64,000 nt of DNA from Eutreptiella sp. 'Long Island Sound 2002'. Taxonomy: Eukaryota; Euglenozoa; Euglenophyceae; Eutreptiales; Eutreptiaceae. Of the stretch, positions 32,289 through 60,200 are shown one piece after another. The DNA is taken from positions 101,124,357 through 101,188,356 of the forward strand of contig OZ038382.1 in NCBI GenBank assembly GCA_964036045.1. Reading direction: 5' to 3'. Each line of letters opens with the position of its first letter. Within the stretch, counting starts at the first letter, position 1. The notes below the pieces were generated by a model, which ran no database searches, was not told where the DNA came from, and saw only the letters and a program-made list of their open reading frames with translations. Made by a program: the position numbers and the translations under genes.

Positions 32289-32399
32289 GTGTGGCGCTAA
32301 CGCGCGGCCCGGGGCCGCCGCATCAAGGGCTCGTGTAGCGGGCGCGGGCCCGAGACTCCGGACGGCATCGTGCTGCGCGTCTGTCTGCAGTCACGGTTG

Positions 32400-35465: not shown

Positions 35466-35589
35466 TGTTGTGTCGCTGTGCCCAAGAGCAGGGGGTGGGG
35501 TACAGATTTCCCGTGGCTGGTGTTCATGCTGTGGGCGCGGCCGGGCGTGGGTTGGGGAGCTCGTACGCTCATTCTGCGGGCCGGCTTTC

Positions 35590-38500
35590 GTGTGTTCGTG
35601 TGGGCGCTAGGTGCTCTCCCCCCGCCGTCCGTGGTGACCCCGTTGCGAGGGGGGTCCCAGGCAGGGCGCTCTCCCTCCTCCGACTGCCCTCCTCCTGGGG
35701 GCTGCCGCAGCCCGCTGGCCATGTGCTGTGGGTGCGGGTGTGCGGGTGTGGGGGCCAAGCACTGTCCCCTTGCCTTGCTTGCCTGTAGGGGCTGCGTGCC
35801 GCGGGGGTGGTGGGGGGCCGTCTCCAGGGGGGGTGGCCCGCCGCCGTTGTGAGGGGCGTCTGGTGTCACGTGCTGTCCCTCTCCCGGCGGCCAGGGTGCC
35901 GTGACCCGTGTGTCCCGGGTGTTGTTGGTGTGCGCGTGGGGACCCTGCTCCTGCCTCACGGCGTGCGCCCTTGCGGGCACCTGCGGAGGGGTGCCCCCGT
36001 GGGGGGCGCCTGTCGCCGTTGCGAGGGGCGTCTGGGGTCAGGCGCTCCCCCTCCGCCACCCACTTGCTGTGGGCGCGGGTGTGCAGGCGTGGGGGCCCAG
36101 CACTGTCCACGTGGCTTGCATGCCCTGTGAGGGGCGTCTGGTGTCAGGCGCTGTCCCTCCCCCTGCCGCCCGTCCTCGGGGGCGGGCAGCCGGAGTTCCG
36201 CGGCCCGTGTGTCCCGGGTGCGGTTGGTGCGGGCCTGGGGGCCCAGCACCGGCCGCATAGCGTGCGCCCTTGAGGGATGGCGTTGCGCGCTGTGGGGGTG
36301 GCAGAAGGGCTTCCCCGGGGGGGGGTGCCTTTCGCCGTCGTGAGAGGCGTCTGAGGTCAGGCACCCTCCCCCCCCCCCCGACTGCCCGCCCTCCGGGCGG
36401 GCTGTCGCGGTCCGCCACTCACTTGCTGTGGGTGCGGTTGTGCGGTTGTGGGGGCCCTGCACTGTCCTCTTGGCTTGCATGCCCTGTGTGGGCTGCGCGC
36501 CGTGGGGGTGGTGGGGGGCCGTTCCCAGGGGGGGTGACCTGCCACCGCTGTGAGGGGCGTCTGGCGTCAGGCGCTGTCCCTCCCTCGGTCGCTCGTCCCC
36601 TGGGGCGGGCAGCCGGGGTTCCGCAACCCGTGTGTCCGGGGTGCTGTTGGTGCGAGTGTGTGGACCCATTACCGGCCCCACAGCGTGTCCGCCCTCGTGG
36701 GCTGGCGATTGGTCGCTGTGGGGGTGACGGAAGGGCGTCCCCGGGGGGGTGCCTTTCGCCGTCGTGAGGGGCGTCTGAGGTCAGGCGCTTCCCCTGCCCC
36801 GACCGCCCGCCGGCCGTCCGGGCGGTCGGGGTCCGCCACCCACGTGCTGTGAGCGGGGGTGTGCGGGTGTGGGGGATCAGCACTGTCCCCTTGGCTTGCA
36901 TGCCCTGTGGGGGCTGCATGCCGCGGGGATGGTCGGAGGCCGTCCCCGGGGGGGTAGCCTGCCACCGTTGTGAGGGGCGTCTGGTGTCAGGCGCTGTCCC
37001 TCCCCCGGTCGCCCGCCGTCTGGGGCGGGGGCCGGGGTGTCACGACCCGTATGCCCCGGGTGCGGTCGATGCGGGTGTAGGGACTGAGCACCGGCCCCAC
37101 AGCGTGCGCCCTTGCGGGCTGGCGTTGCGCATTGTGGGGGTGGCGGGAGGGCGTCCCCTGGGGGGGTGCCTTTCGCCGTCATGAGGGGCGTCTGAGTTCA
37201 GGCGCTCCCCCTCTTCCGGCTGCCCCTCCTCAGGGCTGGCTGTCGGGGTCCGCCACCCACGTGCTGTGGGCGGGGGTGTGCGGCTGTGGGGGCCCGGCAC
37301 TGTCCCCTTGGCTTGCATGCCCTGTGGGAGCTGCTCGCCGCGGGGGTGGTGGGGGGCCGTCCCCGGGGGGGGTGGCCTGCCACCGTTCTGAGGGGCGTCT
37401 GGTATCAGGCGCTGTCCCTCTCCCGGCCGCCCGTCCTCTGGGGCGGGCAGCCAGGTTTCTGCGACCCGTGTGTCCCGGCTGCGGTCGGTGCGGGCGTGAG
37501 GACCCAGCACCGGCCCCACAGCGTGCGCCCTTGCAGTTCGGCGTTGGTCGCTGTGGGGGTGGCGGAAGGGCGTCCCCGGCGGGGGTGCCCTTTACTGTTG
37601 TGAGGGGCGTCCGAGGTCAGGCGCTGCCCCTCCTCCGACTGCCCGCCCTCCGGGCGGGCTGTCGGAGTCCGCCACCCACGTGCTGTTGACGCGGGTGTGC
37701 GGGTGTGGGGGCCCAGCACTGTCCCCTTGGCTTGCATGCCCTGTGGGGGCTGCATGCCGCCAGGGGCGGTTGGGGGCCGTTCTCGGAGGGGGTGGCCTGC
37801 CACCGTTGTGAGGGGCGCCTGGTGTCAGGCGCTGTCCTCCCCCCGGCCGCCCGTCCTCTGGGGCGGGCAGTTGGGGTTCCGCGGCCCGTGTGTCCTGGGT
37901 GCGGTTGGTGCAGGCGTGGGGATCCAGCACCGGTCCCACAGCGTGCGCTTTTGCGGGCCAGCGTTGCTCGCTGTGGGGCTGGCGGAGGGGCGTCCCCGGG
38001 GGGTGTGCCTTTCGCGGTTGTGAGGGGCGTCTGATGTCAGGCGCTCTCCCTCCCCCGACTGCCCCCCCACTGGGCGGGCTGTCGGCATTTGCCACCGACG
38101 TGCTGTGGGCGCGTCTGTGCGGGTGTGGGGGCCCAGCACTGTCCCCTTGGTTTGCATGCCCTGTGGGGGCTGCATGCCGCGTGAGTGGTGGAGGGCGGTC
38201 CCCGGGGGCGATGGCCTGCCACCGTTGTGAGGGGCGTCTGGGGTCAGGCGCTGTCCCTCCCCCGGCCGCCCGTCTTCTGGGGCGGGCAGTCGGGGTTCTG
38301 CGGCCCGTGTGTCCTGGGTGCGGTCGGTGCGGGCGTGGGAACCCAGCACCGGCCCCACAGCCTGCGGCCTTGCGGGCCAGCATTGCTCGCTATGGGGGTG
38401 GCGGAAGCGCGTCCCCGGGAAGGGCGTCTTTCGCTGTTGTGAGGGGCGTCTGAGGTCAGGCGCCCCCCCTCCCCCGACTGCGCGCCCTCTGGGCGAGCTG

Positions 38501-40200
38501 TCAGGGTCCGGCACCCACGTGCTGTGGGCGCGGGTGTGCGGATGTGGGGGCCCGGCACTGTCCCCTTGGCTTGCATGCCCTGTGGGGGCTGTGTCCTGCG
38601 GGGCTGGCGGGGGGGCGTCCCCGGGGGGGGTGGCCTGCCACCGTTGTGAGGGGCGTCTGGTGTCAGCCGCTGTCCCTCCCCCGGCCACCGGTCCTCTGAG
38701 GCGGGCAGCCGAGGTTCTGCGACCCGTCTGTCCCGGGTGCGGTCGGCGCGGGCGTGCGAACCCGGCAGCGGCCCCACAGCGTGCGCTTTTGCGGGCCAGC
38801 GTTGCTCGCTGTCGGGCTGGCGGAAGGGCGTCCCCGGGGGGGAAACCGTTCGCCGTTGTGAGGGGCGTCTGAGGTGAGGCGCTCCCCCTCCCCCGACTGC
38901 CTGCCCTCTGGGCGGGCAGTCGGGGTCCGCCACCCACGTGCTGTGGGCGCGGGTGTGCGGGTCTGGGGGCCCGGCACTGTCCCGTTGGCTTGCATGCCCT
39001 GTCGGGGCTGCGTGCCGCGGAGGTCGGGGGGGGCCGTCCCCGGGGGGGTCGGCCTGCCACCGTTGTGAGGAATGTCTGGTTTCAGGCGCTGTCCCTCCCC
39101 CGGCCGCCCGTCCTCTGGGGCGGGCAGCCGGGGTTCCGCGACCCTTGTGTCCCGGATGTGGTGGGTGCGGGCGTGGGGACCCAGCACCAGCCCCACAGCG
39201 TGCGCCCTTGCGGGCCGGCATTGCTCGCTGTGGGGTCCGCGGAGGGGCGTCCCCGGAGAGGGCGCCTTTCGCTGTTGTGAGGGGCGTCTGAGGTCAGGGG
39301 CTCCCCCTCCCCCGACTGCCCGCCCTCTGGGCGGGCTGTTGGGGTCCGCCACCCACGTGCTGTGGGCGCGGGTGTGCGGGTGTGGGGGCCCGGCACTGTC
39401 CCCTTGGCTTGCATGCCCTGTGGGGGCTGCGTGCCGCGGGGACGGGGGGGGGCTGTCCCCAGGGGGGGTGGTCTGCCACTGTTGTGAGGGGCGTCTGGTG
39501 TCAGGCGCTGTCCCTCCACCGGCCGCCTGGCCTCTGGGGCGGGCAGCCGGGGTTCCGCGACCCGTGTGTCCCGGGTGCCGTCAGTGTGGGCGTCAGGACC
39601 CAGCACCGGCTTCACAGCGTGCGCCCTTGCGGTTCAGCGTTGCTCGCTGTGGGGGTGGCGGAAGGGCGTCCCCGACAGGGGTGCCTTTTACCGTTGTGAG
39701 GGGCGTCTGAGGTCAGGCGCTCCCCCGCCTCAAACTGCCCGCCCTCTGGGTGGGCTATTGGGTCCGCCATCCACGTGCTGTGGGCGCGGGTGTGCGGCTG
39801 TGGGGGCCGAGCACTGTCCCCTTGGCCTGCATGCCCTGTTGGGGATGCTCGCCGCGGGGGTGGGGGGAGGCCGTCCCCGGGGGGGGCGGCCTGCCACTGC
39901 TTTGAGGGGCGTCTGGTGTCAGGCGCTGTCCCTCCCACGGCCGCCCGTCCCCTGGGGCGGGCAGCCGGGGTTCCGCAACCTGTGTGTCCTGGGGGCGGTG
40001 GATGCGGGCGTGGGGACCTAGCACCGGCCCCACAGCGTGCCCCTTTGCCGGCCGGCGTTGCGTGCTGTGGGGGTGGCGGAAGGGCGTCCCCAGGGGGGTT
40101 GCTGTTCGCCGTGGTGAGGAGCATCTGGGGTCAGGCGCTCCCCCTCTCCCGACTGCCCGCCCTCTGGGCCGGCTGCCGGGGCCCGCTGGCCACGTGCTGT
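35590..40200 (-). repeat. ~420-bp tandem monomers in the LINE 5' region
   Basis: The marker CCCCACAGCGTGCGCCCTTG recurs near 36243, 36666, 37093, 37508, 37930, 38347, 38767, 39185, 39604 and 40024, giving a period of 415-427 bp. A shortened copy lies near 35957. Each unit also has GCACTGTCCCCTTGGCTTGC and GTGAGGGGCGTCTG. The array sits directly upstream (minus sense) of ORF1, like the promoter monomers of some LINEs. Long open frames across it follow the repeat and are not genes. Confidence 0.9.
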
Positions 40201-41788
40201 GGGCGCGGGTGTGGCTGTGTGCGGTGTGTGTGGTGTCTGTGCAGTGCCTGTCATGGTGCGTGGTGTCGCCTTTCGCCTGTCCCTCCGGTGCTCCCCTCTC
40301 CGGTTCTTCCGTGCGGTGTTGTGCTCACCGTGTGCCTGTCGCGCCCCCTTTGCTGCGCGCATCCCTTGCTCGGCTGCTGGCTACCCCCTGTTTTTTTCGT
40401 GGCTTCGTCGCTCTTTACCCTTTCCTCTGCTCCCTGTTCGCTCGCCCTTCTCCCTGGCATGCATTTTTTCCCTGCCTCCGCTCTGTTGTCTTGCTCTGTC
40501 TTTTTCCTTGCCGGCTCATCTTTCTCTTTCATTGAGCCCTGTAAGACAAAGGAAGGATGGGGGTATGTGGGCCTTCGGTGGCTCGGTGCGGTCTTCGTGT
40601 AATGTTGGCACCATGTTCGTTGCGGCTGCGTGCTCCGTTGCGCGGCCTATAAAATACCTGTCTTCGCACTTGTGCCTACGTCTGTACGCACGCTCCTCCC
40701 CCTCCGCGCCATACCATGGTGTGCTTATGTCTCTCCCCATACCCATACCTTTTTGTATGTTGCTTGTCGTGGCGCCGTTGTACTCCCTATGCAAAAGGGC
40801 GTGCGAGGGCGGGGGTCCTTCTTCCTACTCTCCCTGCTCCCTGGTTGGTCCCACACCTTTGTTGGTCTCGGTTGTTGGCGCGGGTCGGGCGAGCGTGGTG
40901 TGTAACATACTTGCACTTGTACCGCGGCTTGGTATGTGACCACACCTCTTTCTTTATTTCTTCTCGTTCGTTGCTCCTCTCGTGTGCGCAGCGTGGCATG
41001 TAACATACTTGCATGACTCCCTCCTTACCCGTATCTTTTCGTGTGATGCGTGTCTTGGCGCCGTTGTACTCCCTATACAAGTGAGCGTGTGGGAGCAGGG
41101 GTTGTTCCTCCTACTCTCCTCGTTGGGCCGGTCTTGGTACACACTCTTGTTGGCGTGGGCCCTTGCGGCCCTGCCTTGCCCTTGCGTGCAGGTGTGCGCG
41201 CTTTTCTCCGCCGTGGCGTGGATTATATCATACTTGCACCCGGCACGGCTCCACACACCTCTTTGGTGCCCTTTGTTCGTTGTCCTTCTCGCGTGCGCGG
41301 CGTGGCATGTAGCATACTTGCGCGACTTGGCCCTTACCTGTATCTTGTTCTGTGTTGCGTGTCTTGGCGCCGTTGTACTCCTTGCGTGGGTGTAACATAC
41401 TTACCTCAACCACATCTTTTCGTGTTTTGTGTGTCGCGGCGCCGTTGTACTCCCTATGCAAGTGGGCGTGCGGGGGTGGGGGTTTTGCATCCTACACTCC
41501 TTGGTTGGTCTCATACTCCTGCGCTGGTGTGGTATGTAACATACTTATGCCACGTACTTGCTCTCTCCTCGCCTATATCTTACCGTCTTGTGCTTGCTAT
41601 GGCGTAATTTAGCATTGTGTGGCTTTCTCCACCGTGGCGTGGTTTATATCATACTTGCACCCGGCACGGATCCACACCCCTCTTTGGTTACCTCTGGTCG
41701 TGGTCCTTCCCGCGTGCGCGAAGTGACATGTAACATACTTGTGTGGCTCCCTCCTTACCCACATCTTTTCGTGTTTTGTGTGTTACGG
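40201..41788 (-). repeat. Second imperfect repeat set at the LINE 5' end
   Basis: This pyrimidine-rich region contains repeated TGGCGCCGTTGTACTCC (40771, 41057, 41365, 41440) and GTAACATACTT (40904, 40998, 41392, 41536, 41730). The segment starting GGCGTGGATTATATCATAC at 41213 recurs at 41635, about 422 bp away. The LINE boundary at 41788 falls inside one of these units, as expected for incomplete reverse transcription of a repeated 5' region. Confidence 0.75.
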
Positions 41789-42415: not shown

Positions 42416-43379
42416 GTGGCCTCCAAGAGGAGATTGGTGGCCAAAAAGCTATGCTACGCTAAGCTTTCCCGTCATTCATTGCCGTTGAAGCAAGGGTCTA
42501 TGAGAGATATCTCCCAACTGGAGGAGGACCTAGAACAGAAGATCACTACCTGGCAAAGGGGGGTGGATCTCAAGCTCATGAAGAGCGTATGGGGTGCCGA
42601 AGTGAGGACCCAAGAGGAAGATGAACTCTCAGAGGAATGCGTATGCGAACCCCCTCCAGCGTGGCTCTGCTGCAACCGGCCACCTAAGATTGTGGAACGG
42701 GACCATCTATACGCCTATCAAGGGTTGAAGGATACTACCAAGGACGCTGAGCCCGTTAAGGATCACCTCCCTGCTTCTATACACCAAGGGGCAAGCAATC
42801 TACACTCTGACGAAGACCTGGAGGACAAGATCAAGCTCTTGGACCCTAGAGTACAGACGCTGATCAGGACCTACCTGGAGGTGTTCGGAGAACTACCCCC
42901 TTCAGCTTCCTGTGACAGGCTAGTTTCAGATGGACTTCAAGCTGAAGCCCAGGTTCGTGGGTCACAAGATACGTCACATCGTCACAAGATGACACCCTAT
43001 GATCATATCGTCACAAGACCCTACCCGGCTCCTAAAGAGCAAGCCGATGGGATAGAGCGACAGATACAAGATTCTTTTGCCGCTGGCCCGGTTCTGGAGT
43101 ACAAGGATGGGGACTACCCCCCGCATTGCAGCCCCTGTTTTCTGGTTGCTAAGCCTGGGTCTACAGCAAAACGGCTGGTGGTGGACTACAGAGAGCTGAA
43201 TAAGATGACGCTGAACCACTCAGGGTCCATTCCTAACATGGAATCAACCCTCGGAAAGATAGCCTCCTGCCGCTACAATACGAAGATGGGTAAGCGGAGT
43301 GGAATCTGGCAAGTGGAGCTGACGCCCAATGCTCAAAGGCTCCTGGCCTTCGTCACCCCTCAGGGGAGGGTCTTCAAGT
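42416..43379 (+). pseudogene. Ty3-2 pol spacer and first half of RT
   Basis: After the acidic spacer come YPAPKEQADGIERQIQDSF, PHCSPCFLVAKPGS, KRLVVDYRELNKMTLNHSG and SGIWQVELTPNAQRLLAF, then TPQGRVFK. These are the N-terminal RT motifs, including the first catalytic Asp region, here Glu (QVEL) as against QVDL in Ty3-1. The reading is cut directly after GRVFK by the TIR transposon and resumes at 52381 as KWKVMPFGVANAP. Confidence 0.85.
43375..43379. repeat. Target-site duplication CAAGT, left copy
   Basis: The same five bases occur at 52381-52385 on the far side of the TIR transposon. Deleting the element and one copy restores the conserved RT sequence. Confidence 0.88.
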
Positions 43380-43408
43380 CTTAGGCGGCTCACGTTGCAT
43401 GGTGAAAA
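43380..43408 (+). repeat. Left terminal inverted repeat of the 9-kb transposon
   Basis: It begins CTTAGGCGGCTCACGTTGCA. It matches the reverse complement of 52352-52380 at 27 of 29 positions. Confidence 0.93.
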
Positions 43409-43726
43409 TGTGCCCAAAACTGCCTCTCTACGGCACTGCGAAAAAATAGTCCTTTTGGGGGGGACGTAAAACACAAGAACCAAAAATCCCGTGAAAAGCA
43501 ATTAACTGGTCCATTTTCCTTTATTTTCAACAAAACTGACTGCCCGGGAAAATGATTTATTTCCAGAAAAATGAAGTTCTTTTTTGGGAAAATCACGATT
43601 TTTTGTTTCCTATACCACTTATGCTTTGCAATAAAAACACCCATGAGCTTTTAATCTTTTGGAAAACCAGTTTTCGAAAACCCTGTTCCACGCTGCACGA
43701 CAAGAAGCTTTTTTTGGTCCCCCTTC

Positions 43727-43748
43727 TTTGTGCGAGGCCTCGCGCAAA
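43727..43748. repeat. Palindrome copy 1
   Basis: A 22-bp inverted repeat around TGCGAGGCCTCGCGCA with TTT/AAA flanks and one mismatch. Confidence 0.9.
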
Positions 43749-43837
43749 CACCAACACAACAGCGCAATAAAATGCATCACAGAGAAAAATGTGCCGCACA
43801 AGGTGACAGCATAAAGGTCGTCGAAGAGGAATGCATA

Positions 43838-43853
43838 GCGCGAGCCCTTGCGC
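43838..43853. repeat. Palindrome copy 2, degenerate
   Basis: Reads GCGCGAGCCCTTGCGC. It departs from perfect symmetry in one arm position and at the centre. Confidence 0.7.
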
Positions 43854-44047
43854 ATAATATATCAGAACAAGCGAAGAAATTACTTTTTCTTCGGAACAGT
43901 TTGCATCTTAGAACCCAATGCCTTAGCAACGGATCACTTTCTGAGTGTCTATTTTTTTTTGATGACAGCATTTTATAATGCCTGATCAACCTGCAGACCT
44001 GGCTGCAGTGTTTTCGCAAAATCCAGGCCAGGCTCCGCCTGCGATCA

Positions 44048-45580
44048 ATGCTGAACGATCCACCGATCAAAACGCCTGCAGAGCAGCAGAAGCTGACAGT
44101 ACCGCCGCCTGCCGCTTCTGTCCTTCAAAGCCTGCAGAACGTCGTGGTTACAACTCTGTGGTCAAACTGGGTTCTGTTCGATGTTTTGGAAAAGGAAATA
44201 CAACTTCAACGCCTCCTGCGACAACAGTCACGTTTTCCACGCCCACTTTCAACGCCAAATAATAAGCTGCAAGACAACTGCAATACTGCAACAGCCGCCG
44301 TTCAACCATGCTCTTCCCCTTTTGATGCCTTTGCAGTGCCTGTCAATGACTCGAACAAAAACAGCGATGACGAGTCCACCTCAAACCCAGCGCCAACCAA
44401 GTCAGCCAAAAAGGTATTGCCTTCACCAACACACCGCCATCAAGCTGCTGGTCAAAAGCCGAAGCCGTCAAAGAACAGGTACGACGCAGCTTTTGTCTCG
44501 CAACCAGAGGATGATAATGAATGTAGCTCAAACCCAGCGCCAGCGGAAACAGAGGAGATAGCAACACCGTCTCCAACACATCGCCAACCAGTTGCTGGTC
44601 ACAAGCCAAAGCCGTTCAGGAGCACGTACGACGTGACACCTTCGCCAACGCATCGCCAACAAGATACTCGTCAAAAGCCGAAGCCATCCAAGAAAAGGTA
44701 CGGCGCCACTCTTGTGTCGCAACCAAAGGACAATGATGAATACATTTCAAACTCGACGCCAGAAAAATCAGCGGAAATGGAAACGCCGTCACCAACGCTT
44801 CGCCAACACGTTGCTGGTCAAAAGCCGAAGCCGTCAGGGAACGGGTACAACACAGCTCTTGTCTCGCAACCAGCACGCTACTTGCCGAGCTCAAAGTTCG
44901 ACACCGGAAATGTGTTTAACACCCTGCTGACCCGTGCTGCAAGGCAAACCACCACGACCAAAGGGCCTGTCAGCACACTGCCTCGCACGCAAGTGAGCGA
45001 AAAAGCTACACAGAACCAAGGCACGCTACCAACAGCGAAGCAGCAGCACCAACCAACGAGTCGAAGGTCTCCATCAAGCACCTCCAAGTATGAACGACGA
45101 CTTGGGTACAAAAAAGGTTCTCCGAATTGCAGAACACGGCTTCAAAGTGCGCCCCGAGTCCACCAGTACCAACCAGCGAGTTCACCGTCAAATATATGGA
45201 AGGTAAAGCCATTGCCGGAAGTCACAGCTTCGAATTCTAGTCATAAAGAAAAGCCGACCAACAACAACACTTCCCTTGCTGATGATCAAAGTCAGATGCC
45301 GCAAAGCACGACCACCGAGACAATGCCGACGCCAAAGCTATCCGTACAACCAAAGGAGGATAATAAAGTATCGTGGTATGTAAATGCTATTGGTGAATTT
45401 TGTCTCAGCAACAACAACGAGGCAGTTCAACTTACTGACGTTCGTCGCCTCACCACGATGGAAATCCAAAAGATCTTGTACCTGAAGGATTATACAGAAT
45501 ATCTAATTGCAAACAGCCACTTAAAGGCTATTGACGACAGCAACAGTTTTTACTGGTCAGAAGACCTTGTTACATCATAA
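44048..45580 (+). CDS. Transposon-encoded repeat protein, function unknown
   Basis: Length is 510 residues from an ATG. Residues about 90-275 are four to five tandem repeats of ~35-45 residues, each with PSPTHR or PSPTLR, GQKPKPSK (or HKPKPF), a Tyr-containing segment, VSQP and an acidic SN/PE stretch. The middle is Ser/Thr/Gln-rich and basic (TSRRSPSSTSKYERRLGYKK). The C-terminal ~90 residues are more ordered (VSWYVNAIGEFCLSNNNEAV, TMEIQKILYLKDYTEYLIAN). No signal peptide or membrane segment is seen. It might be a disordered DNA- or RNA-binding accessory protein. The frame is fully open and diverges from the rest of the element in no obvious way. Confidence 0.7.
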   Translation: MLNDPPIKTPAEQQKLTVPPPAASVLQSLQNVVVTTLWSNWVLFDVLEKEIQLQRLLRQQSRFPRPLSTPNNKLQDNCNTATAAVQPCSSPFDAFAVPVNDSNKNSDDESTSNPAPTKSAKKVLPSPTHRHQAAGQKPKPSKNRYDAAFVSQPEDDNECSSNPAPAETEEIATPSPTHRQPVAGHKPKPFRSTYDVTPSPTHRQQDTRQKPKPSKKRYGATLVSQPKDNDEYISNSTPEKSAEMETPSPTLRQHVAGQKPKPSGNGYNTALVSQPARYLPSSKFDTGNVFNTLLTRAARQTTTTKGPVSTLPRTQVSEKATQNQGTLPTAKQQHQPTSRRSPSSTSKYERRLGYKKGSPNCRTRLQSAPRVHQYQPASSPSNIWKVKPLPEVTASNSSHKEKPTNNNTSLADDQSQMPQSTTTETMPTPKLSVQPKEDNKVSWYVNAIGEFCLSNNNEAVQLTDVRRLTTMEIQKILYLKDYTEYLIANSHLKAIDDSNSFYWSEDLVTS

Positions 45581-46430
45581 CTATATATACAACGAGTGTG
45601 TTTACTGATGCATGTGCAGATTCAAGTTCTGATTTACTGATGAAAAATTTGAGTTGGTCACCAAAGCATTGTTTTTGCGAAGAAAGGTGCCAAAACACCT
45701 CTCAGAGGTGCAAGAATTGCTGCCCTTGGCTCAGATTTCACTTGTATATGTTGTAGGAGCCACATCAAACACACCCTGCTTTCACAGAACACATTCACAA
45801 CAAGACACTCCATCACGGCAACACACGCCACAGCTCTAAGTCAACACTCTTTACACACACTCGACAAACAATGCTACCACCATCACAGCTCAGAACACAG
45901 ACACTCACATCCTTTTCTGCAGCTCTTCCTTTTCATATATATCTGATATTGGCTGCTCCAGAATGACTTCCCTGCACTGCATCAATTGCACTGCAATGTC
46001 ACCATTGCCTGCTTTTGATTGCTAGTTTGTTGCCTGCATTGTATGGATCCGGCACTGATTTTCCCCTAGGGTGAAAAATCGGGGTTGTTTTCCAAATGTA
46101 GTGAACAGAGGGGTCACAGCCACAGCGTTTTCAAACAACTTTCTGCAGGTGATGCCAGTTCTAATTTTTGGCATTTCTAAAACTTCTCCTTTGTATGTTA
46201 TCTAACCTACCAGTACCAGGTACTTCTATCAGTTTTCTACAAAGTCTATCAGTCTATTATCTTATCACTTCGATAAATTTTTCCTGGAACCACCTTGGTG
46301 AACCAGTGGCCTAATGAAAGCCAAAAGTACAACCTACACTCACACCAACACTCATGCACCTCCACCAAATCAACACCAACACCCACGCACGGTCTCCAAC
46401 ACCGGTCAGCGCAGTTCAAGTATGAAAAGG
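45581..46430. other. Intergenic region between convergent transposon genes
   Basis: AT-rich sequence with no supported gene and no palindrome copy. It should hold the two 3' untranslated regions. A CACCAACAC-rich patch lies at 46340-46400. Confidence 0.5.
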
Positions 46431-49312
46431 TCATGTAGATAGTATGCACAGCATCTGTGTACATAGCCTGCTCTTATCTACGACCTGTGAGAACTCTGAA
46501 AAAGTCTGTGACGTCTTAAAAAATGCCTTAGCAACGGACGTCTTACCCTTAGGCGGTGGCCTTGCGGGCTCGCTTCTTGGTTGGGACTGACGGGCTGGCC
46601 GCTTGGATGGAGCTCGGGCCCCGGTTTCCTCGGACCTCGGCTTCGCTGCCACTTTCTTCGCTGCCTTGCCCTCGGAGACCTGCGCTTCCTCCGCCTCTTC
46701 TTCCTCGCTCTCCTCCTCTTCATCCCCATCGCTCTCGTTGGATTCTGCTCCGGTAACCAACTTCGCTGCCTGGGGCTTGGAGGCAGTCTTCTTCTTCTTG
46801 GGGGCTGGTTCCCCACCAGTAGACTTCCGCTTTGCAGGGGCCAGTGCTTCTGCAGCTTGACCTTTCTCAACAGTCTCTTCCTCCTTCAGCGACAACGCAT
46901 CAGAACCCACCTTGTCATCGCGAACCCAAAGGGGAATACCACGGTTTGACCAGTTGGCCTGCTGGTCCCAATCACCAGACACGTCCGGTTTTGACCCTTG
47001 TGTCAATACGTGGTTCAACTGAGTCTGCACTCTGTTGACCCAATCGGAGAGATTGTCGGAGGTAACACCAAGAAGGTACATGGGAGAATATGGCTCGATG
47101 GACGCGATCTTGCACACCAGATCCGGCTGATGATCAATGAACACGAACGCAGGCTTGAAGCTCTTATCCTGCTTCGGGTAAAAGAGGTGAGTGTCGAAAT
47201 ACCACATAACCGTCGTTATCGGAAGGTGACCGCCAAATTCAACAGGATCCATCTCCTCTACTTGAGTAGGTCCAAACGTCAGATAATTTTCGAATCTGCA
47301 ATGAGGGAGAAGTTATTGTGCGAGGCCTCGCGCAAAGAGCGGACGTAATCAGGGAATTATACCTTTCTTGACCAGCTATCCGGTGACGAAATCAGCAACC
47401 AGCGAACGTCAAACGTTGTAGGATCTCCTGCAGGCTTCGGTTTGACTGGCCAACTGAAGATGGGAACACGCAACATGTTAGCCATGCGCGGCGCGTTGAA
47501 ATCATCCTTGAGACGCCTATCTGTTTCCGTCTCCAGCACGTTGAACATGTTGTCAACAACAGTTTGAGAGCCGCAGATAAGGGTATCGGCACGCGCCATC
47601 TCTTCATACAGCCAGGCTGGGCACATCATCTCAGGAGCAAGATGTTCAAATATGTCGCCGTTGATGACAATCAGGTTCTTGTCAATCTCAATAAACCGCC
47701 TCGGGGGATCGTGGGTCAACGCTGCAATTCGGGTCGCCTTAACTCTGATAGTTTGACTTGACAGTAATGGATCCTGCTGTTCCACTGTCTTGAAGTCACC
47801 AGTAACGCCAGCCGGTGGGGGGACCACACGGCTCTTGGTAGGCTCTTGACCCAGGAGGTTTTGGACGTTGAGGATTTTCAGGGAGGCAGGTTTGCCTTTC
47901 TCTGCCACCTGCCACAGTGGTGCGCGAATCATGGATTTCCATGCCGGCCATGGACCGCGACGTTTGCCTTCAGGTTCCCGCCAATATCCCCATGTACCAA
48001 GAGTCACCTTCAGGGCAGGCCTTCCAAGTGCAGCAACCTCTTTGCGGGTCCGCATGTCTTTGGCTAAAGAACAGAAATGGAGAAAGTGCGGCGCACTGAT
48101 GCAGAAACGGAACCCACGTCGCGTCGATGGTACACACCTTTCTCAGGTTGAACGTACTGGCCGTTGTGCGGGTGGTCCAGATGCATTGAGACCCACTGGT
48201 CAAGGATGATGTCGTCAAACGAATTCTGCAAGGATTTAAGGGTTGTTTTTTCTTGCTGCATGACTTCTGCCACTTTGTTGTAGAACTCCGGTAACAGGAT
48301 CCCGTCCAGTTTCTTCAGCGCATTCTTCATGACTTTCTCTCCTTTGTCGTGGAACTTCTGCAGACCTTTCACAGCTTCCGGACCAGCATAGTAGGCAAAC
48401 GTCATAAAATCTTTCCACAATTTATACGTTTTGTCCTGAAAGTGACAACCTTATGCGCGAGGCCTCGCGCAATGAAGAGCAACGAAACAACGATGAATGA
48501 ACATACGAATTACCAGGCTGCTTCAGTTCAGCGGTTGGAACCAGGGCACTTATCTGTACAGCATCCACAATGGCGATCTTGAGATTGCTGTACGTGTCAG
48601 CCAGGCCTCGCCGCCGCTAATATTCAACACATCGAATGAGGTTATCTGCTGCCTCATACAGCGGAATTGGCTCAACCTCTTGTGCACTTTCTTGTGCTTG
48701 TCCCGCCAGCTTTGCACGGAAGGCCCACGGTGTCATAGGCTTCAGAATATCGGCGATGCATATAGTATGCCACTGCTGCAGATCTAGACACGCTGTGCGT
48801 CGTTTCTCCGAATCTTCGCAATCGCTTCCACGCTGTGCTGTCCAGATACACACCAATAATCGCCATCTGCAAATATGAGACACGCCTATGCGCGAGGGCT
48901 CGCGCAACGAGAAGAGCGAAAAGTCGGTTGGCAACATACTATTATCTTCCCAGAGAACGACGTGTAATGGGCCTGTTGGCGGTGCTGCTTCGAGTGACTC
49001 AATACGCTTCTGCAATAACTTGGTATCTTTCCGTCTAATCTGCCGCTTTGTCTTCTCCTGGTCGATTCTCACGTTGTCCAGCTCAACCTCCACCTGCCTC
49101 CCATCCGGCTTCGGGTGGTCCTCGATGTCAGTACCCAAGGTTAAGCCGGGATCTGGTGTTTCCTTCTTCTTACGCCCCTTCTTTGGTGTTCCAGCCTCTG
49201 ATCCTGAGGTCCCAGGGTCATAGTCGGCATCTTCTCGTTCCTCGGCTGTTTTTTTGGCGGGGCTTCCCATTCTGCGATAAGAAGAAAGCCTGTATTGAAG
49301 GAAACATAACAT
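46431..49312 (-). CDS. Intron-containing transposon gene, function unknown (ParB-like patch)
   Basis: The minus reading likely starts at MGSPAKKTAEEREDADYDPG (near 49270), just after a CGCAG acceptor. Exons follow separated by short introns at 48867-48939, 48436-48513, 48064-48137 and 47296-47362. The first exon is charged and ends in a basic helix (TKRQIRRKDTKLLQKRIESL). After intron one the canonical splice gives GDYWCVSGQHSVEAIAKIRR, which resembles the GQH-type core of ParB/sulfiredoxin-fold proteins. Later exons carry LADTYSNLKIAIVDAVQ and NLIVINGDIFEHLAPEMMCP. The last exon has a long acidic/Lys-rich tail (ESEEEEAEEAQVSEGKAAKK). An in-frame TAG near 48619, a shift near 48790 and unmatched phases at two introns suggest decay or unusual splicing. 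Confidence 0.6.
47296..47362 (-). other. Intron D with central palindrome
   Basis: Minus sense begins GTATAATTCC and ends CATTGCAG, 67 nt. It holds palindrome copy 3. Exon frames on both sides are clear, but a one-base shift of a boundary is needed to keep phase. Confidence 0.75.
47316..47335. repeat. Palindrome copy 3, inside intron D
   Basis: TTGTGCGAGGCCTCGCGCAA, one mismatch. Confidence 0.9.
48064..48137 (-). other. Intron C with a different GC inverted repeat
   Basis: Minus sense begins GTGTGTACC and ends TTCTTTAG, 74 nt. The flanking exons join in phase (QPEK then AKDMRTRK). The middle has the 13-base inverted repeat AGTGCGCCGCACT instead of the usual palindrome. Confidence 0.75.
48436..48513 (-). 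other. Intron B with central palindrome
   Basis: Minus sense begins GTAATTCG and ends ACTTTCAG, 78 nt, and contains palindrome copy 4. The following exon reads DKTYKLWKDFMTFAYYAG only if the donor is moved by one base. Confidence 0.7.
48454..48471. repeat. Palindrome copy 4, inside intron B
   Basis: TGCGCGAGGCCTCGCGCA, perfect 18-bp palindrome. Confidence 0.93.
48867..48939 (-). other. Intron A with central palindrome
   Basis: Minus sense begins GTATGTTGCC and ends ATTTGCAG, 73 nt, and contains palindrome copy 5. It splits an Asn codon and yields the GDYWCVSGQHS reading. Confidence 0.75.
48889..48906. repeat. Palindrome copy 5, inside intron A
   Basis: TGCGCGAGGGCTCGCGCA on the plus strand, asymmetric only at the centre. 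Confidence 0.9.
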
Positions 49313-49431
49313 TGAAAAGAATTAAAATTGTCGTCGATAATGCATATGTGAGGCGCTTTTAGCGAATACGAGTACAGTATGGTTGAGAATGCAAAACTGA
49401 AGGGGCTCGGCACTGTTTTTGACTGTTAACC

Positions 49432-49451
49432 TTGCGCGAGGCCTCGCGCAA
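49432..49451. repeat. Palindrome copy 6
   Basis: TTGCGCGAGGCCTCGCGCAA, perfect 20-bp palindrome. Confidence 0.93.
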
Positions 49452-49487
49452 GAGAGGGGGTGTACTAACCTTTTGTTTCATGCTGTT

Positions 49488-49505
49488 TGCGCGTGGCCTC
49501 GCGCA
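49488..49505. repeat. Palindrome copy 7
   Basis: TGCGCGTGGCCTCGCGCA, one mismatch. It abuts the stop codon of the transposase candidate at 49506. Confidence 0.9.
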
Positions 49506-50450
49506 TCACTGCATGTTCTCCAATCCTCTTCGAACGTTTCGCAGCGTGTCGGCCTCTCTCTGTTCCTCCAACACACTGCGTTGGGGGATCAGCTCCGACA
49601 GTTTTTGCTTGAAACCAGCCTTAAGCGGCCCCTGCTGCGTTAGCACCAACAACACAGACACAAGGACTTGTTTGTAGTGGTTAGAACCCTTTGGAATTAG
49701 AAGAGACGGTGGAAGGTTAGGTACACCCCTGCGCGGCCAATGCGCCTGAATTGTACAAGTAGGCTCAGCACACCACCTAACCCAAGGCACATATACACGC
49801 TCTGCGTTCAAGTAAGCAGTTAATCGCTGAAGCACGGAATTGACAAAGGAATTGGGGATTTTGCAGACGTTCACCCTGTGACCTCCTTTGCGGATAGTGA
49901 TGAGATGATACAGATCGTCAACATCTTCAATGATTACTTCACCTCTGTTTTGGCCCTTCTTTGTCACAAGGCTGGAAAGCAGACTTTCACAAAATTCCTC
50001 GGCAAAAGCCTGTCCAGGCATGGCTGTGTGCCATGCAGTGTGGCACAATAGCGCAGTTGCAACAGTGCGTTCGTATTTTAAAAGTTTGTCCATCATGTTC
50101 AAACGGTCTAACAGACACATAACAATCTGCAATCCCTCAGAACCAAAAACACCCGTGTTGGCCGTCTTCCCAGCCCAATTGCACTGCCTAACGAGGTGTC
50201 CTAGGTATAGTAACACGGGAGAGTATTGTGTTAACAGAACCTGCATGGCCTTGCACACAGCATAACGGAGGCGACTTCGCCGATTTGCAAGACGTGCCAG
50301 CTCAAGGGAATGACATTTTCGGTTAAGGCGCCGTATGTGGGGGCCCATACCCAACAGCAGTGCACCAAAGATTATCTCCATTGTGAGCAGCTTGGGAAAA
50401 CAGGGGACTGTGTCACCGATGCGCAACAAACCTTTACGGAAAAAAGTCAC
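49506..50450 (-). CDS. Transposase candidate, C-terminal half
   Basis: About 310 residues follow the frame break at 50443: LLRIGDTVPCFPKLLTMEII, LARLANRRSRLRYAVCKAMQ, GSEGLQIVMCLLDRLNMMDK, TAMPGQAFAEEFCESLLSSL and VYVPWVRWCAEPTCTIQAHW. It is rich in helices and Leu. The AEEFCESL stretch offers candidate acidic residues for a third catalytic position. The open frame extends upstream to 50570, but there it overlaps the N-terminal half in another phase. No named family is assigned. Confidence 0.6.
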   Translation of the reverse strand: MTFFRKGLLRIGDTVPCFPKLLTMEIIFGALLLGMGPHIRRLNRKCHSLELARLANRRSRLRYAVCKAMQVLLTQYSPVLLYLGHLVRQCNWAGKTANTGVFGSEGLQIVMCLLDRLNMMDKLLKYERTVATALLCHTAWHTAMPGQAFAEEFCESLLSSLVTKKGQNRGEVIIEDVDDLYHLITIRKGGHRVNVCKIPNSFVNSVLQRLTAYLNAERVYVPWVRWCAEPTCTIQAHWPRRGVPNLPPSLLIPKGSNHYKQVLVSVLLVLTQQGPLKAGFKQKLSELIPQRSVLEEQREADTLRNVRRGLENMQ

Positions 50451-51492
50451 AATCGGCCAAAATGAGCGAAATGTTTGTGTAAAGAAAAAATTTGTACGCG
50501 TGCCAGAAACCATATAATATAGGGTGTGAACGCAAAAAAAGCCAGACGTTCCAACCCGTTGTTTTTTCACCGTACATCATCTTACAAATGCGGTAATGGA
50601 TGTTCTCATCACATAAAACAGGGACAACTGGTCGGGTGTGCTGCACCAAGTCCCTAGTGAATTGCAGTAGGTTAAGAAGCGATATGTTGCCGCTTACCTT
50701 TTCTTTGCTTAGACAAAGGGGTCGCCAATGTGGTCTCTTGGCAGGCACAGGGCGAATAATGTCAAGCGGTGCCCTAATGTTTCGCACAACAGGTCGCGTG
50801 CTTGCAAATCCTAGATCGTGCAGGATACGTGCAAACGTTCCCTCAGTGTTTCCCAGCATGCGTGCAACAACAGGAACACGCCGTTCAAGCTCTTCCAGGC
50901 TAGGATGACCATGCCAGTAGCGCGGTGCATCCTTCAGTAGCAACACAGCCAACGCTGTTGCGTTCAGGTTTTTGTCGTTCTTGTCAGGATTTGTGGTAAA
51001 CTGTTTGTTGTACCAGTTGTCCATCCACAACAAAACCCACTGTTGGTGTATTTTGTTCCATGTAGTCTGTAACCTGACTGCGGCCTTCTTCTTCAGCGCA
51101 GGTGCGCTGTATCGCGCCAGACCTGACCTTGCCAAAATGCGACGCTGTGCCCTACTTCCCTCTACCGCAACAACTGACTTTGGTTTTCCCTGGTATGGAA
51201 CTGCGCAGTGGCCCATCAGCAAATAAAGGCGCCAGGCCTCCTCTATCAAAACACCAACCCATCTCTTGCCTTCTGCCGCAATCGCCTTTTCAACGCTGCA
51301 ACGCGTCCGTTCATTTTTGCGCAGACGCAGAAAAAACACAAACAACAATCGCGCGCCCTCGTCCCCCTGTTTTAGTCCTTCCCACAGTTCCTCTGCCGTG
51401 TGGTACGGCGGTTCCTCTGAGCAGACATCGTGGAAAACTCCAGATGCTGCAGCCACTATCTTCTCAAGGTCCACCTCTTTTCGCAGGGGCAT
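50434..51492 (-). CDS. Transposase candidate, N-terminal half with DEN/WH motifs
   Basis: Length is 353 residues from an ATG at 51492. A helical N-terminus (VDLEKIVAAASGVFHDVC) is followed by VRLQTTWNKIHQQWVLLWMD and TALAVLLLKDAPRYW. Near residue 285 comes PVVPVLCDENIHYRICKMMY, then PILYGFWHAYKF. An Asp in a hydrophobic strand followed by a WHxYK box looks like part of an RNase-H-fold DDE nuclease, the only enzyme-like protein in the element. The frame runs into a stop at 50434 just after a run of six T (minus strand), and the other half continues in a different phase. The family is unknown to me. Confidence 0.6.
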   Translation of the reverse strand: MPLRKEVDLEKIVAAASGVFHDVCSEEPPYHTAEELWEGLKQGDEGARLLFVFFLRLRKNERTRCSVEKAIAAEGKRWVGVLIEEAWRLYLLMGHCAVPYQGKPKSVVAVEGSRAQRRILARSGLARYSAPALKKKAAVRLQTTWNKIHQQWVLLWMDNWYNKQFTTNPDKNDKNLNATALAVLLLKDAPRYWHGHPSLEELERRVPVVARMLGNTEGTFARILHDLGFASTRPVVRNIRAPLDIIRPVPAKRPHWRPLCLSKEKVSGNISLLNLLQFTRDLVQHTRPVVPVLCDENIHYRICKMMYGEKTTGWNVWLFLRSHPILYGFWHAYKFFLYTNISLILADCDFFP

Positions 51493-51877
51493 TGTTGCTG
51501 TGAAGAATAAATGCGTACCTGTATCTATGTAAAGATCGCTGTTTGAAAAACGTTCTTGATTTCAAACATCAACCCGTCACACAGTGTTCGCGCGACCAAT
51601 TATTCTGTGATTCGCTTGTCGCATGCACCATTTTCGGTTACCTGTAACTGTCTGGTGATCCCACATTTGACTAGTTAATCCTGATTGCGGTAGCCAGTTG
51701 CGGCACGCTACCATCGCTGTTCGGCAGTGAAGCCAGCGGTGACCACAGTATGAAAACCGGAGATGCTAGCGGGACCTGTATGGGCGCCCATGCAGCAGCG
51801 CCGCATCAAGGGAACGCACATGCTGTGTAGTTGGTGGATCTGTCCATTTTTGGTTTCTATGAGCGCTTGTGATCTCC

Positions 51878-51899
51878 ATTGCGCGAGGCCTCGCGCAAT
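51878..51899. repeat. Palindrome copy 8
   Basis: A perfect 22-bp palindrome: the 18-bp core extended by AT on each side. Confidence 0.93.
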
Positions 51900-51937
51900 G
51901 ATCACCGAAACTTTAATGTTTCTCATGCGCCGTTCCA

Positions 51938-51954
51938 TGCGCGAGGCCTCGCGC
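51938..51954. repeat. Palindrome copy 9
   Basis: TGCGCGAGGCCTCGCGC, the core lacking only the last base. Confidence 0.92.
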
Positions 51955-52163
51955 TTGAAACTGCAGTTTGTTCGGGAACATTTATACTTTTCAAGATTCT
52001 TGGGTACACCATTGTTGCAGTTTATTTGTTAATAGATCTTTCTCTATCACGCAATCCTGATAATGGTATCAAGTTACGTGTATAAATACGACAAGGTTCC
52101 ATTCTTCGACAACCTGCCTAATGCGTCGTGCTGTAGTACATTAATCTGACACAAATGAACGTC

Positions 52164-52185
52164 TTTGCACGAGACCTCGCGCAAA
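52164..52185. repeat. Palindrome copy 10, degenerate
   Basis: The 22-bp inverted repeat with core TGCACGAGACCTCGCGCA and two mismatched pairs. Confidence 0.85.
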
Positions 52186-52351
52186 GAATGGTCACCAAAC
52201 AATACTTTTCCCTGTCTCGCACATGGGACACATCATTCTTATAGAAATATTTATTCTGCCATACTTGTTTGCGACGGTTTTAAAATATCCATCAAAACAA
52301 CTATTTTTTGATGCCTTTGGAAACCTGTCATTTTCCTACCTTTTCCTTCGT

Positions 52352-52380
52352 TTTTGACCATGCAACTTGAGCCGCCTAAG
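52352..52380 (-). repeat. Right terminal inverted repeat of the 9-kb transposon
   Basis: Its reverse complement begins CTTAGGCGGCTCAAGTTGCA. The mismatches with the left end are at positions 14 and 25. Confidence 0.93.
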
Positions 52381-52385
52381 CAAGT
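52381..52385. repeat. Target-site duplication CAAGT, right copy
   Basis: It matches 43375-43379. RT coding resumes inside it. Confidence 0.88.
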
Positions 52386-56580: not shown

Positions 56581-57273
56581 TCAATTCGGCCAAGCACGAA
56601 TACATGTGACCACCAACCTGTCTGGTCGGGCCCTCGTACGGCTTGGGCGCTGCAAATCAGCGGCCGAACTTGAAGCTTGGTCCTCATTTGGCTCCTGGGC
56701 TGGCCTGACCGCAGGAGGGGGGATTGACGGATCAGCGCTGGAATGTGGCTGCTGAGGGCCGTAAAAGGCTGGATCTCGATTCACCACAGGTCTTTTTCCG
56801 TCGCTCTCCACTTGTCTGTCTGGTTTCGACAAACAGTCTGTCAGGAGTACGCCAATTTCGGGGTGCTTCTTGAGGAAGTCGATGAACCCCTTGGTGTACC
56901 CATGGACAAAAGAATGGGCTGGTTCCCAGTTGTTGTGACTGGAATCAAAGCCCCTCCACTCACATAGAAATTCCCATTCGCCCTTGGCGTCACGTCTTGC
57001 TTCTAAAATCCTCTTGAGTTCGTACTTCCCCCCTTCGATGACCCGATCTGACAAAATTTTCGAAGTCCAAAAAAGGGGTTTAACCCGATCCTTGGGGGAG
57101 GGGATCTCTCTCTTGAGGCGATCGCCCGAAACGTCAATTTCCCTGCTGACATCCACACGAATCCTCCACCTGTTCTCACCTAGACGCGCTGTAACAGCGA
57201 ATGGCCCCTCCCACAAGGGAAGAAGCTTGTCATCTCCGTCCAGGGTGGTTTCGGATTTTGGAAGCCAAACTCA
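56581..57273 (-). CDS. Integrase C-terminal and chromodomain tail of Ty3-3, after an in-frame UGA
   Basis: This region is in the same frame as pol and begins after the TGA at 57271-57273: LPLWEGPFAVTARLGENRWR (integrase GPF-type module), then YELKRILEARRDAKGEWEFL, WRGFDSSHNNWEPAHSF and FIDFLKKHPE. The latter match a chromodomain with its Trp/Trp-Glu-Pro core. The first ATG is at 57216, but the frame is open from the UGA. It either needs readthrough or is lost from this copy. Chromodomains steer integration to marked chromatin. Confidence 0.82.
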
Positions 57274-60200
57274 ATCATCGACTTCAAAATTGTGGGGGTT
57301 TTTTCGGCCTTGATTCTGGACCCAAAGCCAGTCAGCTTGATGCTTATCGATTAATTTCGAGACAGTTTTATCTGCTCGTTGGACGTCGTCCAAAAACAAC
57401 GAAGCATCTTTACAAGGGCGAGGATTATTCAACGGCATGTTCCACCAACACTTCTTTCGTCCAAAGACAATTTCATTTGGAGAAAGGCCATGGTACAAAG
57501 GCGTGTTGTGGTAACGGCGAAGCAATGCGAACAGAACTTCAAGCCAGTGGAAATCTTTCTCACTCGCGAGCTCCTTAGGAAGCATATTTATAATTGAGCG
57601 GCGGGCTCTTTCGCCAGGCAGTGCTCGATGCGAGTGGATTTCACACCTGAGGTGGTGGATTCCAAGGCGAGCACATAATTCCCTCCACCATTCGGAGGTG
57701 TACTCTTTGCCTGAGTCCGTAACCACCTCGGATGGGACGTCCCAACCTCCCATCCAGGTCTGCGCGCACCATTTGGCGGCAGCCTTGCCAGTCATCGACT
57801 CGATGTTGCAAGGCAACACCTGAATGTAGCCGGAATGACGGCACTGAATAAGGAGCACACCATTGACCTTTTTATTGGTCCAATGGCACTCTTCGTCATC
57901 GAGTTCACCGAGATAGAAGAAATCACTGGTGACTCTGTTAAAGAGGCGCTCCGGAATAGGATGTGGCCTCAGATGGCCGTGCTTCTTCGCGCTGGGGGGC
58001 GTCGAGACAGCACATTGGGCACATCCGGCGGCTACTTTCATGCAGTGAGTATATAGCCGTGAGCCAAACAACCTATGTTTAATCATCGACCACAGTCGAC
58101 GGCCATGTGCGTGGGGGGACTCCCATTTATGCCACCAGTTTAACACTCGGGGGGCCAGGGCGTCTGGTACGCACAATTTACCCTCCATCCACAGCTTCCC
58201 CCCATCCAACGAATACTCAGAAAAAATCCCATCCTTGTGAGCATCTTTGGATTTGAGATTTCCAAAGACCTCTTTAAACATGAGATCCTGCAGATAATCG
58301 GACGTCCAGTCACGGATGATCAGGGAATCTTTCGGCAGGGGTGGAGTTTTGGCCGGATCTCGACGCTTAATGCCCTGGATCAACCGAAATCGACTTACTC
58401 GTCGGGTATAGTCAAACCGTTTCACACTCCCTGAGGAGGGATCGGTGACTTTCTCCACGAATTTCAGTGTTTTGGTGCAGATCTCATGAGCATGCGCCGG
58501 ATCTGAGATGGCCGTGATGTCGTGACACGGTAATGCGTGCTGTTTAACAGCGCATTGCATGCATGCACGTCGAATGAGCTTTTTTTCCTCTTGATCCCAC
58601 TCGATTATGACATGGCGGTCCTGCTCCGTACCATGGATGTTGGTACTTTGCAGCCCCTCTGAAGCGGGGTAAGCCCATCGGCTCAGAGCATCCGCTACCG
58701 TGTTGTGTTTTCCAGGCAAATACGACACATGGAGGTCAACCAGACTGAGAAATTCGTGCCATCTGGCCCGTCGACCAGCTGGGCTCGCGACAGTATCAAT
58801 GTGTTCGGTGGCCCAATACTCCAGAGATCGATGATCCGTCAGGACCTCGACTCGGTTGGTGCCAACCCACGATTGGTACTTTTTTAAAGCACAGATTATG
58901 GCGTAGGTTTCTTGCTCACGTGGCGACCATTGCATTTGGCGTGGGGCTAGCTTCCGAGACCAAAATGCAAGAGGGTAATGATCACCTGTGGCTTCATCAA
59001 CCTGTTCAAGGACAGCTCCGATCGCGTACCTAGAAGCGTCGGTTCTTATGTAGAAGGGTCGGTCGAATTGCGGCACGTGCAACGTGGCGACTTCGCAGAG
59101 GGCTGCCTTCAAATGATGGAAGGCCTCCTCGCACTCGTCAGTCCACTTGACACGAACCTTTGAACCTGCCTTGCCCGCATCTCCCCCTACCTTCAGTAAT
59201 TCAGTGAGAGGGGCAGCAAATTTGGCATAATTCGGCACAAAAGTGTGGTAAAAATTGCAACAACCCAGGAATCCTCTCAACTCCGTGATCGTCTCAGGGC
59301 GCTTCCACTTCTGAATAGCGACGAGCTTCCCTGGACTGGGTCGTCGGGTGCCATTCTCAAGGAGAGAACCGCAAAATTCGACTGATTTTAAAAATAATTT
59401 TCCCTTCTTTGGCCCACAAATCAGCTGATTGGCATCAAGAATGTCCAAAACTTGGTTCAGCTGCCTTTCATGTAGGGCCACCAGCTCGGCTTCGGTCAGT
59501 CCCTCCCCCTCTGTCGCGATGATTATGTCATCTATGTACACACTCACGAAGGCACGAAGCTCAGGATGGGCTGTAAAAAGCACATCCTCCATCATTCTTT
59601 GAAAAAACGAAGGGGCGTTCTTCAGGCCCATGGGCATGACCGTCCACTGGACTGGGCCACATGGCGTGCACATACAGGTGAGAGGTCGGCTGTCCTTCCT
59701 CAACGGCATTCGGTGAAAGCCGTGACGGAGATCCAGCACAGAAAACAAACGATCTCTTGCCCTCTTGGCGATTTCCTCCTCAATGAGGGGCAGGGGGTGT
59801 GAATCCGCCTTGGTTTCGGCGTTGAGATTGCGAAAATCAACAACCATTCGCCAACCATCAATAGTGTTCTGGTCTGCAGGCGGCGGCTTCGGGACTGTGA
59901 AGGGTGCACAGCACCATTCGCTGGTCATACAACCCTCAAGCCAACCAAATTCCCTGAGATTTCTCTCGATTATTTTTCTGAGTATCTCATGTTTGTGTCC
60001 ATGGTTCTCATAAGGACGCTGTTTCTTCGCCTTGTAACCTTCACGAAGCTCGATGAAGGCTTCACCGAACTGTCCACGGACAGGGGGGTCTTTGATCAAC
60101 TTCCCCGAAAGGGTTGTGTCCTTCCGTTCCTCAAAAATCTTTTCTCTTGCCTTGGAACACAACTCAGTGTCCACCTGATCGCCAGGAATTACTGTCGAAA

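Follow-up and report, generated by a model that had tools for sequence, protein, structure and literature searches.

The 64-kb stretch of the Eutreptiella genome analysed here (the window; C5:101124357-101188356 in an assembly of 2.28 Gb and 2,205 contigs) holds, at positions 43380..52380, a 9,001-bp unit with inverted repeats at its ends, lying inside a reverse transcriptase (RT) gene of the Ty3 type. This locus raises the question of what kind of mobile element the unit is, and whether it belongs to any known superfamily of DNA transposons. An earlier reading made from the letters alone (the sequence-only reading) had taken it for a complete single element with three genes. We found that the unit is composite, and that the transposon proper is about 6.4 kb long, has two genes and has ends starting with CTTAG. 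A probability of roughly 0.7 is given to the reading that it represents a DNA transposon lineage in a euglenid with a putative DDE (Asp-Asp-Glu) transposase, a second gene (gene B) and a selected palindrome bound by an element protein, of which the window copy is dead. What was observed comprises inverted ends with a 5-bp duplication, a transposase-like gene under selection, palindromes that are conserved and have family-specific edges, and 1.7-kb derivatives that look non-coding.

The ends of the unit are two terminal inverted repeats (TIRs) of 29 bp, which agree at 27 of 29 positions; the left one (43380..43408, + strand) starts with CTTAGGCGGCTCA and the right one (52352..52380) lies on the - strand. 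They are flanked by exact 5-bp target site duplications, CAAGT, at 43375..43379 and 52381..52385. The sequence-only reading had reported these ends, their agreement and the duplication, and the coordinates and the exactness of the duplication were reproduced. It had also placed the insertion exactly between ...GRVFK and KWKVMPFG of the RT, which is borne out by the joined flanks: they align without gaps to the window's other Ty3 RT, which has no interruption, with 85 of 115 bases identical.

The 13-base end CTTAGGCGGCTCA is present in 3,091 copies in the genome (1,573 + 1,518), compared with 6 (4 + 2) for the reversed control, an abundance far above chance. Among 100 listed places of this end there are 25 facing pairs no more than 10 kb long, compared with 2 pairs in the opposite order. 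The facing pairs cluster at two lengths, 13 of them at 1.66-1.71 kb and five at 6.29-6.40 kb. Duplications were scored on 20 of the 25. An exact 5-bp duplication of varied sequence was found at 16 of the 20 pairs, and agreement over 6 bp at none. Five further copies (L059-L063) were added, of which four show a 5-bp duplication and the fifth, L059, shows one end only. The check proposed by the sequence-only reading, a search for second copies with the same ends and for duplications of other sizes, thus returned thousands of ends, with 5 bp as the recurrent size.

Two of the scored pairs, L009 and L017, have no duplication of their own. They are large inverted structures about 15 kb apart (C1:13351567-13380573), each made of two like transposon halves with inverted flanks, and their outer flanks jointly restore AATCT. 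Presumably the two together stem from a single inserted element, flanked on either side by AATCT, through an inversion whose breakpoints lie inside element copies. The 1.7-kb elements look non-coding. When one of them, L020, was compared with a 6.4-kb element with the palindromes masked, the two had the terminal 24-30 bases and a weak 19-base match in common; such derivatives have presumably been moved in trans. Another element of the 1.7-kb type, L010, carries an insert with reverse-transcriptase-like and recombinase-like frames, which in translation looks DIRS/Ngaro-like.

The 9,001 bp of the window copy are made up of the transposon of about 6,396 bp, a nested retroelement of 2,588 bp (43934..46521, + strand) and a 17-bp target duplication of the retroelement, which lies at 43917..43933 on its left and, within exon 5 of gene B, at 46522..46538 on its right. 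The segment 43934-46521 is absent from 11 transposon copies (L011-L016 and L059-L063), whose DNA identity to the window copy is 93.5-95.6% for L011, L012, L014, L015 and L016, 83-86% for L013 and 86-96% for L059-L063. A single 17-bp sequence is present at the empty junction, exact in L014 and L015 and with 1-3 differences in L011, L012, L013 and L016. As read from the sequence, the retroelement inserted at a point where about 17 codons of gene B remain.

When the genome was searched with the insert, 40 of 231 candidates were scored, among them the window copy. Of these 40 places, 35 reach the last base of the insert and begin no more than 12 bases from its start, with 96-100% identity, 34 of them with at least 98%. 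Own duplications of 14-19 bp were found at all ten copies whose edges were inspected, in a matching tolerant of small shifts at the edges. Nine of the ten begin with TC followed by ACTTTCTGAGTGTCTATTTTTTTTCG, and the tenth starts three bases later; the copies mostly end with TTAAAA. The 26-base ACTTTCTGAGTGTCTATTTTTTTTCG is given as the spliced leader of E. gracilis in PMC6242988, and the 28-nt spliced leader of Eutreptiella given in PMC3621762 is nearly the same. In the window copy the leader sequence (43934..43961, + strand) has one base changed; downstream of it lies a repetitive open frame of 533 codons from stop to stop (43979..45577, + strand) with no Pfam match. Since the copy starts match the spliced leader, we concluded that the third "gene" of the sequence-only reading belongs to a retroelement family headed by the host spliced leader, and that this leader marks the host as a euglenid. 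The spliced-leader-tagged retrogenes of dinoflagellates, as described in PMC6050394 and PMC12014239, are likewise retrocopies with a DNA-encoded leader at the 5' end. Unlike them, the element found here is one sequence at 40 scored near-identical places with largely fixed ends, that is, a repeat family, and it is in a euglenid.

The ends and the outer duplication are intact around the full 9,001 bp, as they would be if the unit were one three-gene element and the 6.4-kb copies were its deletion derivatives. We give this explanation almost no credence, because the junction in L014 and in L015 holds the 17-bp sequence once and unaltered, as expected of a target site before insertion, and because the 2,588-bp piece is found at 39 other scored places with the duplications of its own described above. 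The claim of a complete single element with three genes was accordingly given up in favour of a two-gene transposon with a separate retroelement nested in it.

The gene of the putative transposase (49506..51492, - strand) encodes 661 amino acids (aa), counted from M, in intact copies, and is frameshifted in the window by an extra A in a run of six A at about 50485-50490. The six aligned copies L011-L016 are without the extra A, and a programmed frameshift, which had been considered, was dropped on this ground. A protein search of the genome with the transposase scored 115 of 6,852 candidates, which apart from the window itself are 91-95% identical to the query, and many of the matches lie in open frames of 684-689 codons. 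Substitution rates were compared among 11 intact copies at distinct loci (L061 is the same locus as L047, and L062 the same as L033). Over the 55 pairs the mean nonsynonymous divergence (dN) was 0.016, the mean synonymous divergence (dS) 0.125 and dN/dS 0.128, and the highest single dN/dS was 0.67 among pairs with dS above 0.02. These values indicate purifying selection on the transposase. The frameshift of the window is not private to it: in a few more copies, including L059, which is without the retroelement, the match covers residues 1-352 of the same frame. A small subgroup, L059 and others, thus appears to share this frameshift, and therefore broken transposon copies have presumably themselves multiplied, being moved in trans.

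Gene B (43880..49270, - strand) encodes 833 aa in five exons in intact copies; in the window exon 2 is frameshifted and the last exon is split by the retroelement. Its four introns, of 67-74 nt, lie on the - strand at 48867..48939 (intron 1), 48436..48506 (intron 2), 48064..48137 (intron 3) and 47296..47362 (intron 4); their borders are GT-AG in L060, intron 2 having the form GTATGT...AG. An earlier donor for intron 2, 7-8 bases before the GTATGT donor, was rejected, as it puts all copies out of frame. The 833-aa frame is stop-free in L060 and L062; in the remaining nine of the aligned copies, one being that of the window, it is broken by stops or frameshifts. The protein has a conserved motif, [ND]G-x5-[SN]-GQH, together with acidic/basic tails, and is nuclear-looking; no match placing it was found in Pfam, PDB, NCBIfam or PHROGs. 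The library searches gave no support to reading its GQH motif as ParB/sulfiredoxin-like.

A second family of elements (family B, the type of the window copy being called family A) was found at a cluster of palindromes at C1:1833263-1840082. This element is 6,820 bp long with the duplication AAGTT, and its ends match each other in inverted orientation at 30 of 32 bases, the match beginning two bases outside CTTAGCCCACGC... The ends of the two families differ, with CTTAG and a few inner bases in common. The family B transposase is identical to that of family A at 282 of 629 aligned residues (45%) and has one in-frame stop in the copy read; its gene B aligns in four blocks, 28-45% identical, which are split approximately at the introns of family A. 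Three more copies, seen at their ends only, have the duplications TCAAC, GGTAG and GTGGG, giving 5-bp duplications in four of four copies, and two of these three measure 6,856 and 6,859 bp. A search with part of the family B transposase scored 145 of 5,326 candidates. Counted by hand, at least 86 of these 145 rows, on contigs C1 to C20, tie at 540.7 bits with 94% identity, and one more listed row has 540.7 bits at 92%; tied scores are no proof of identical sequences. Among the matches listed, 71 of the 86 tied rows lie in 672-codon open frames. We read family B as having probably burst recently.

Both families carry the same palindrome core, of 18 bp and rich in CpG dinucleotides. In the 64-kb window the sequence GCGCGAGGCCTCGCGC, mostly inside TGCGCGAGGCCTCGCGCA, has ten sites with at most 2 mismatches, all within the element, where 0.05 would be expected by chance. 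Five are near the ends: 43730..43745 (1 mismatch) and 43838..43853 (2 mismatches) on the left, and 51881..51896 (exact), 51939..51954 (exact) and 52167..52182 (2 mismatches) on the right. Three lie in gene B introns, namely intron 1 (48890..48905, 1 mismatch), intron 2 (48455..48470, exact) and intron 4 (47318..47333, 1 mismatch), intron 3 having none; the last two are between the genes, at 49434..49449 (exact) and, just past the stop codon of the transposase, at 49489..49504 (1 mismatch). The same ten positions were found in nine A-type copies mapped beside the window copy. The family B copy has nine palindromes (at most 2 mismatches); as judged from the reading frames, gene B introns 2, 3 and 4 contain palindromes there, as against introns 1, 2 and 4 in family A. 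The whole genome contains 11,014 exact copies, the control being absent from it, and the first 50 listed copies form 15 clusters, 46 of the 50 being in clusters of two or more. What is new here is this roughly ten-fold occurrence of an 18-bp palindrome core in each element, between genes and in introns, and its recurrence in a second family.

To the abundance of the palindrome is added its conservation. When nine copies were compared against L060, the divergence was 2.1% in the palindromes and 0.8% in the ends. The transposase diverged by 4.8% and gene B by 5.1%; the noncoding values were 6.5% for the flanks of the palindromes, 7.6% for what remains of the introns and 7.1% for other noncoding DNA. 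At CpG bases the divergence was 2.7% inside the palindromes and 10.4% outside. From these comparisons the palindrome is most likely a selected cis-signal. At its position -2, T or A occupies 219 of the 220 half-sites in 11 A-type elements and 65 of the 66 in nine 1.7-kb elements with A-type ends; in one family B copy all 18 half-sites have G there. The flank type therefore follows the end type, which points to family-specific element proteins as probable readers of the palindrome. It might instead be read by a host factor, such as a methyltransferase or a chromatin or insulator protein, or act as an RNA hairpin in introns and untranslated regions. The richness in CpG, the 8-bp RNA stem with a GGCC loop that the sequence would allow, and the positions in gene B introns 1, 2 and 4 of family A and in intron-like gaps of family B are in keeping with this. 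Such a reading is unlikely in our view, since the outer bases differ by family (T/A versus G at -2) and track the end type even in the 1.7-kb copies, since palindromes also lie near the ends, outside both genes, and since none occurs outside the element in the 64-kb window.

As to the enzyme, the 661-aa protein is very likely the transposase, and it may be an RNase H-like DDE enzyme. Residues D158, D295, H331, E474, E498 and E502 are kept between families A and B; H331 belongs to a motif G-x-W-H331, and E474, E498 and E502 are the candidate third acids. The name DDE transposase rests on conserved residues and context: no match placing the protein in any superfamily was found in Pfam, PDB, NCBIfam or PHROGs, and the weak library matches of the element proteins either concern acidic tails or are far below curated cut-offs.

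Several observations weigh against the reading proposed here. For the enzyme, no DDE or other nuclease match was found in the same four libraries; in all, 29 D, E and H residues are kept in both families, D158 and D295 among them, so that their conservation alone is weak evidence; these two stand about 137 residues apart, a long spacing, and the third acid is not fixed. AlphaFold models of the full protein and of its core reached a mean predicted local distance difference test (pLDDT) score of 32.8 and 33.2, with no usable fold. For selection, comparisons of intact with decayed transposase copies gave dN/dS values of 1.53 (L014) and 1.45 (L015), and six comparisons of gene B, several with decayed copies, gave 0.33-0.65, a weaker constraint. 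As regards the copies, no duplication was found at two of the 20 pairs, L027 and L028, and at one end L020 remains similar to the 6.4-kb element (78% over 76 bases) slightly past the inverted repeat. The detail for family B comes from one copy and the ends of three others, and the caution on its tied scores given above belongs here as well.

Whether the element falls into a known superfamily was weighed separately. The sequence-only reading had claimed a genuine DNA transposon that fits no common superfamily; of its grounds, the TIRs and the 5-bp duplication stand, and size and gene content, which it had also used as arguments, are partly due to the nested retroelement. The element might belong to a named cut-and-paste superfamily (hAT5, Transib/CMC or KDZ-like) and have diverged past the reach of profile hidden Markov models, its mechanism being ordinary and the palindromes elaborated subterminal transposase sites. 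We regard this as a substantial possibility, though on the improbable side. The D...D...GxxH pattern resembles the D2-(2)H arrangement of several superfamilies, and Spm, too, is known to combine two genes with repeated binding sites. In both families, Pfam at a maximum E value of 10 gave no transposase model, a result limited by the HMMER filters, which drop most matches above about 0.1.

Each of these groups has likenesses and differences. CACTA/EnSpm (CMC) elements are alike in having TIRs, non-coding derivatives, short motifs repeated close to the ends and a second protein beside the transposase; the palindromes here also lie in introns and between genes, the CTTAG ends match no CAC-type terminus, and there is no Pfam match. 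Transib has a 5-bp duplication, as here, and ends of the CACWATG type in contrast to CTTAG, and no Pfam profile match to a Transib/RAG1-like core was obtained for the transposase of family A or B. No hAT model, the C-terminal dimerisation domain included, was found in Pfam at a maximum E value of 10, where a very diverged domain could escape the HMMER filters. A two-gene layout and a dispersed palindrome are not known for hAT5. In the account of PMC12730594, the hAT5 group has a 5-bp target duplication, as does the element here, whereas EnSpm/Plavaka have 2-3-bp duplications and CAC-type or TGT..ACA ends. The KDZ (Kyakuja-Dileera-Zisupton) elements of that account are likewise large DNA transposons of microbial eukaryotes, some with extra genes, but their duplications are 7 bp (Kyakuja) and 8 bp (Zisupton) rather than 5 bp, and Kyakuja has CA..TG ends without inverted repeats (PMC12730594). 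The element proteins gave no Pfam match to a KDZ profile. A 5-bp duplication is not diagnostic by itself, because hAT5 and Transib have it too.

No relatives of the transposon were found in searches of viral contigs and of genome contigs, and among the DNA transposons of Euglena gracilis PMC8101967 reports Merlin. We rate the element as an undescribed DNA-transposon lineage, to which no superfamily is assigned. A bolder proposal is that it forms a new eukaryotic superfamily whose gene B protein reads the 18-bp palindrome, with its family-specific flanks, all along the element and also in the introns, marking, pairing or de-silencing its own DNA in a ParB-parS-like or Spm-like manner, and of which one family burst recently; this we advance tentatively, at somewhat less than even odds.

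For the DNA transposon lineage proposed above, the following mechanism may be envisaged. The element inserts through a 5-bp staggered cut, as its duplications show, and would do so by DDE chemistry of the cut-and-paste kind. Before cutting, the palindrome would most likely be bound by an element-encoded protein, gene B or transposase, that pairs or coats the element; TNPA acts on Spm ends in like manner, and the proposal is made by this analogy. The 1.7-kb non-coding derivatives would be mobilised in trans. The window copy itself is dead, with both genes frameshifted and the retroelement in gene B.

The remainder of the window has further Ty3-like polyprotein frames at 57271-61764 and 2140-4728 (both - strand), and a non-LTR-like (long terminal repeat) reverse transcriptase in long frames within 25701-35606 (- strand), all as read from translations. 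Tandem arrays lie at 7887-12204 (GGCAGG-type 6-mer), 14096-15226 (166-bp unit) and 36126-40213 (419-bp unit, 9.7 copies). The guanine-plus-cytosine content reaches 69-77% over 20-40 kb, with 74% over 8-12 kb, and an Rfam scan of the window returned zero families at gathering score.

If its superfamily status is true, the element adds a lineage to the eukaryotic DNA transposons, from a phylum that seems to have been little explored for them. Its palindrome is an unusually clean cis-signal, kept in introns, in different introns in each family, with the same core and family-specific edges, and these edges offer a directly testable protein-DNA pairing. Family B, with its dozens of tying copies and its open frames, is a candidate active element, and hence may become a genetic tool in an alga.

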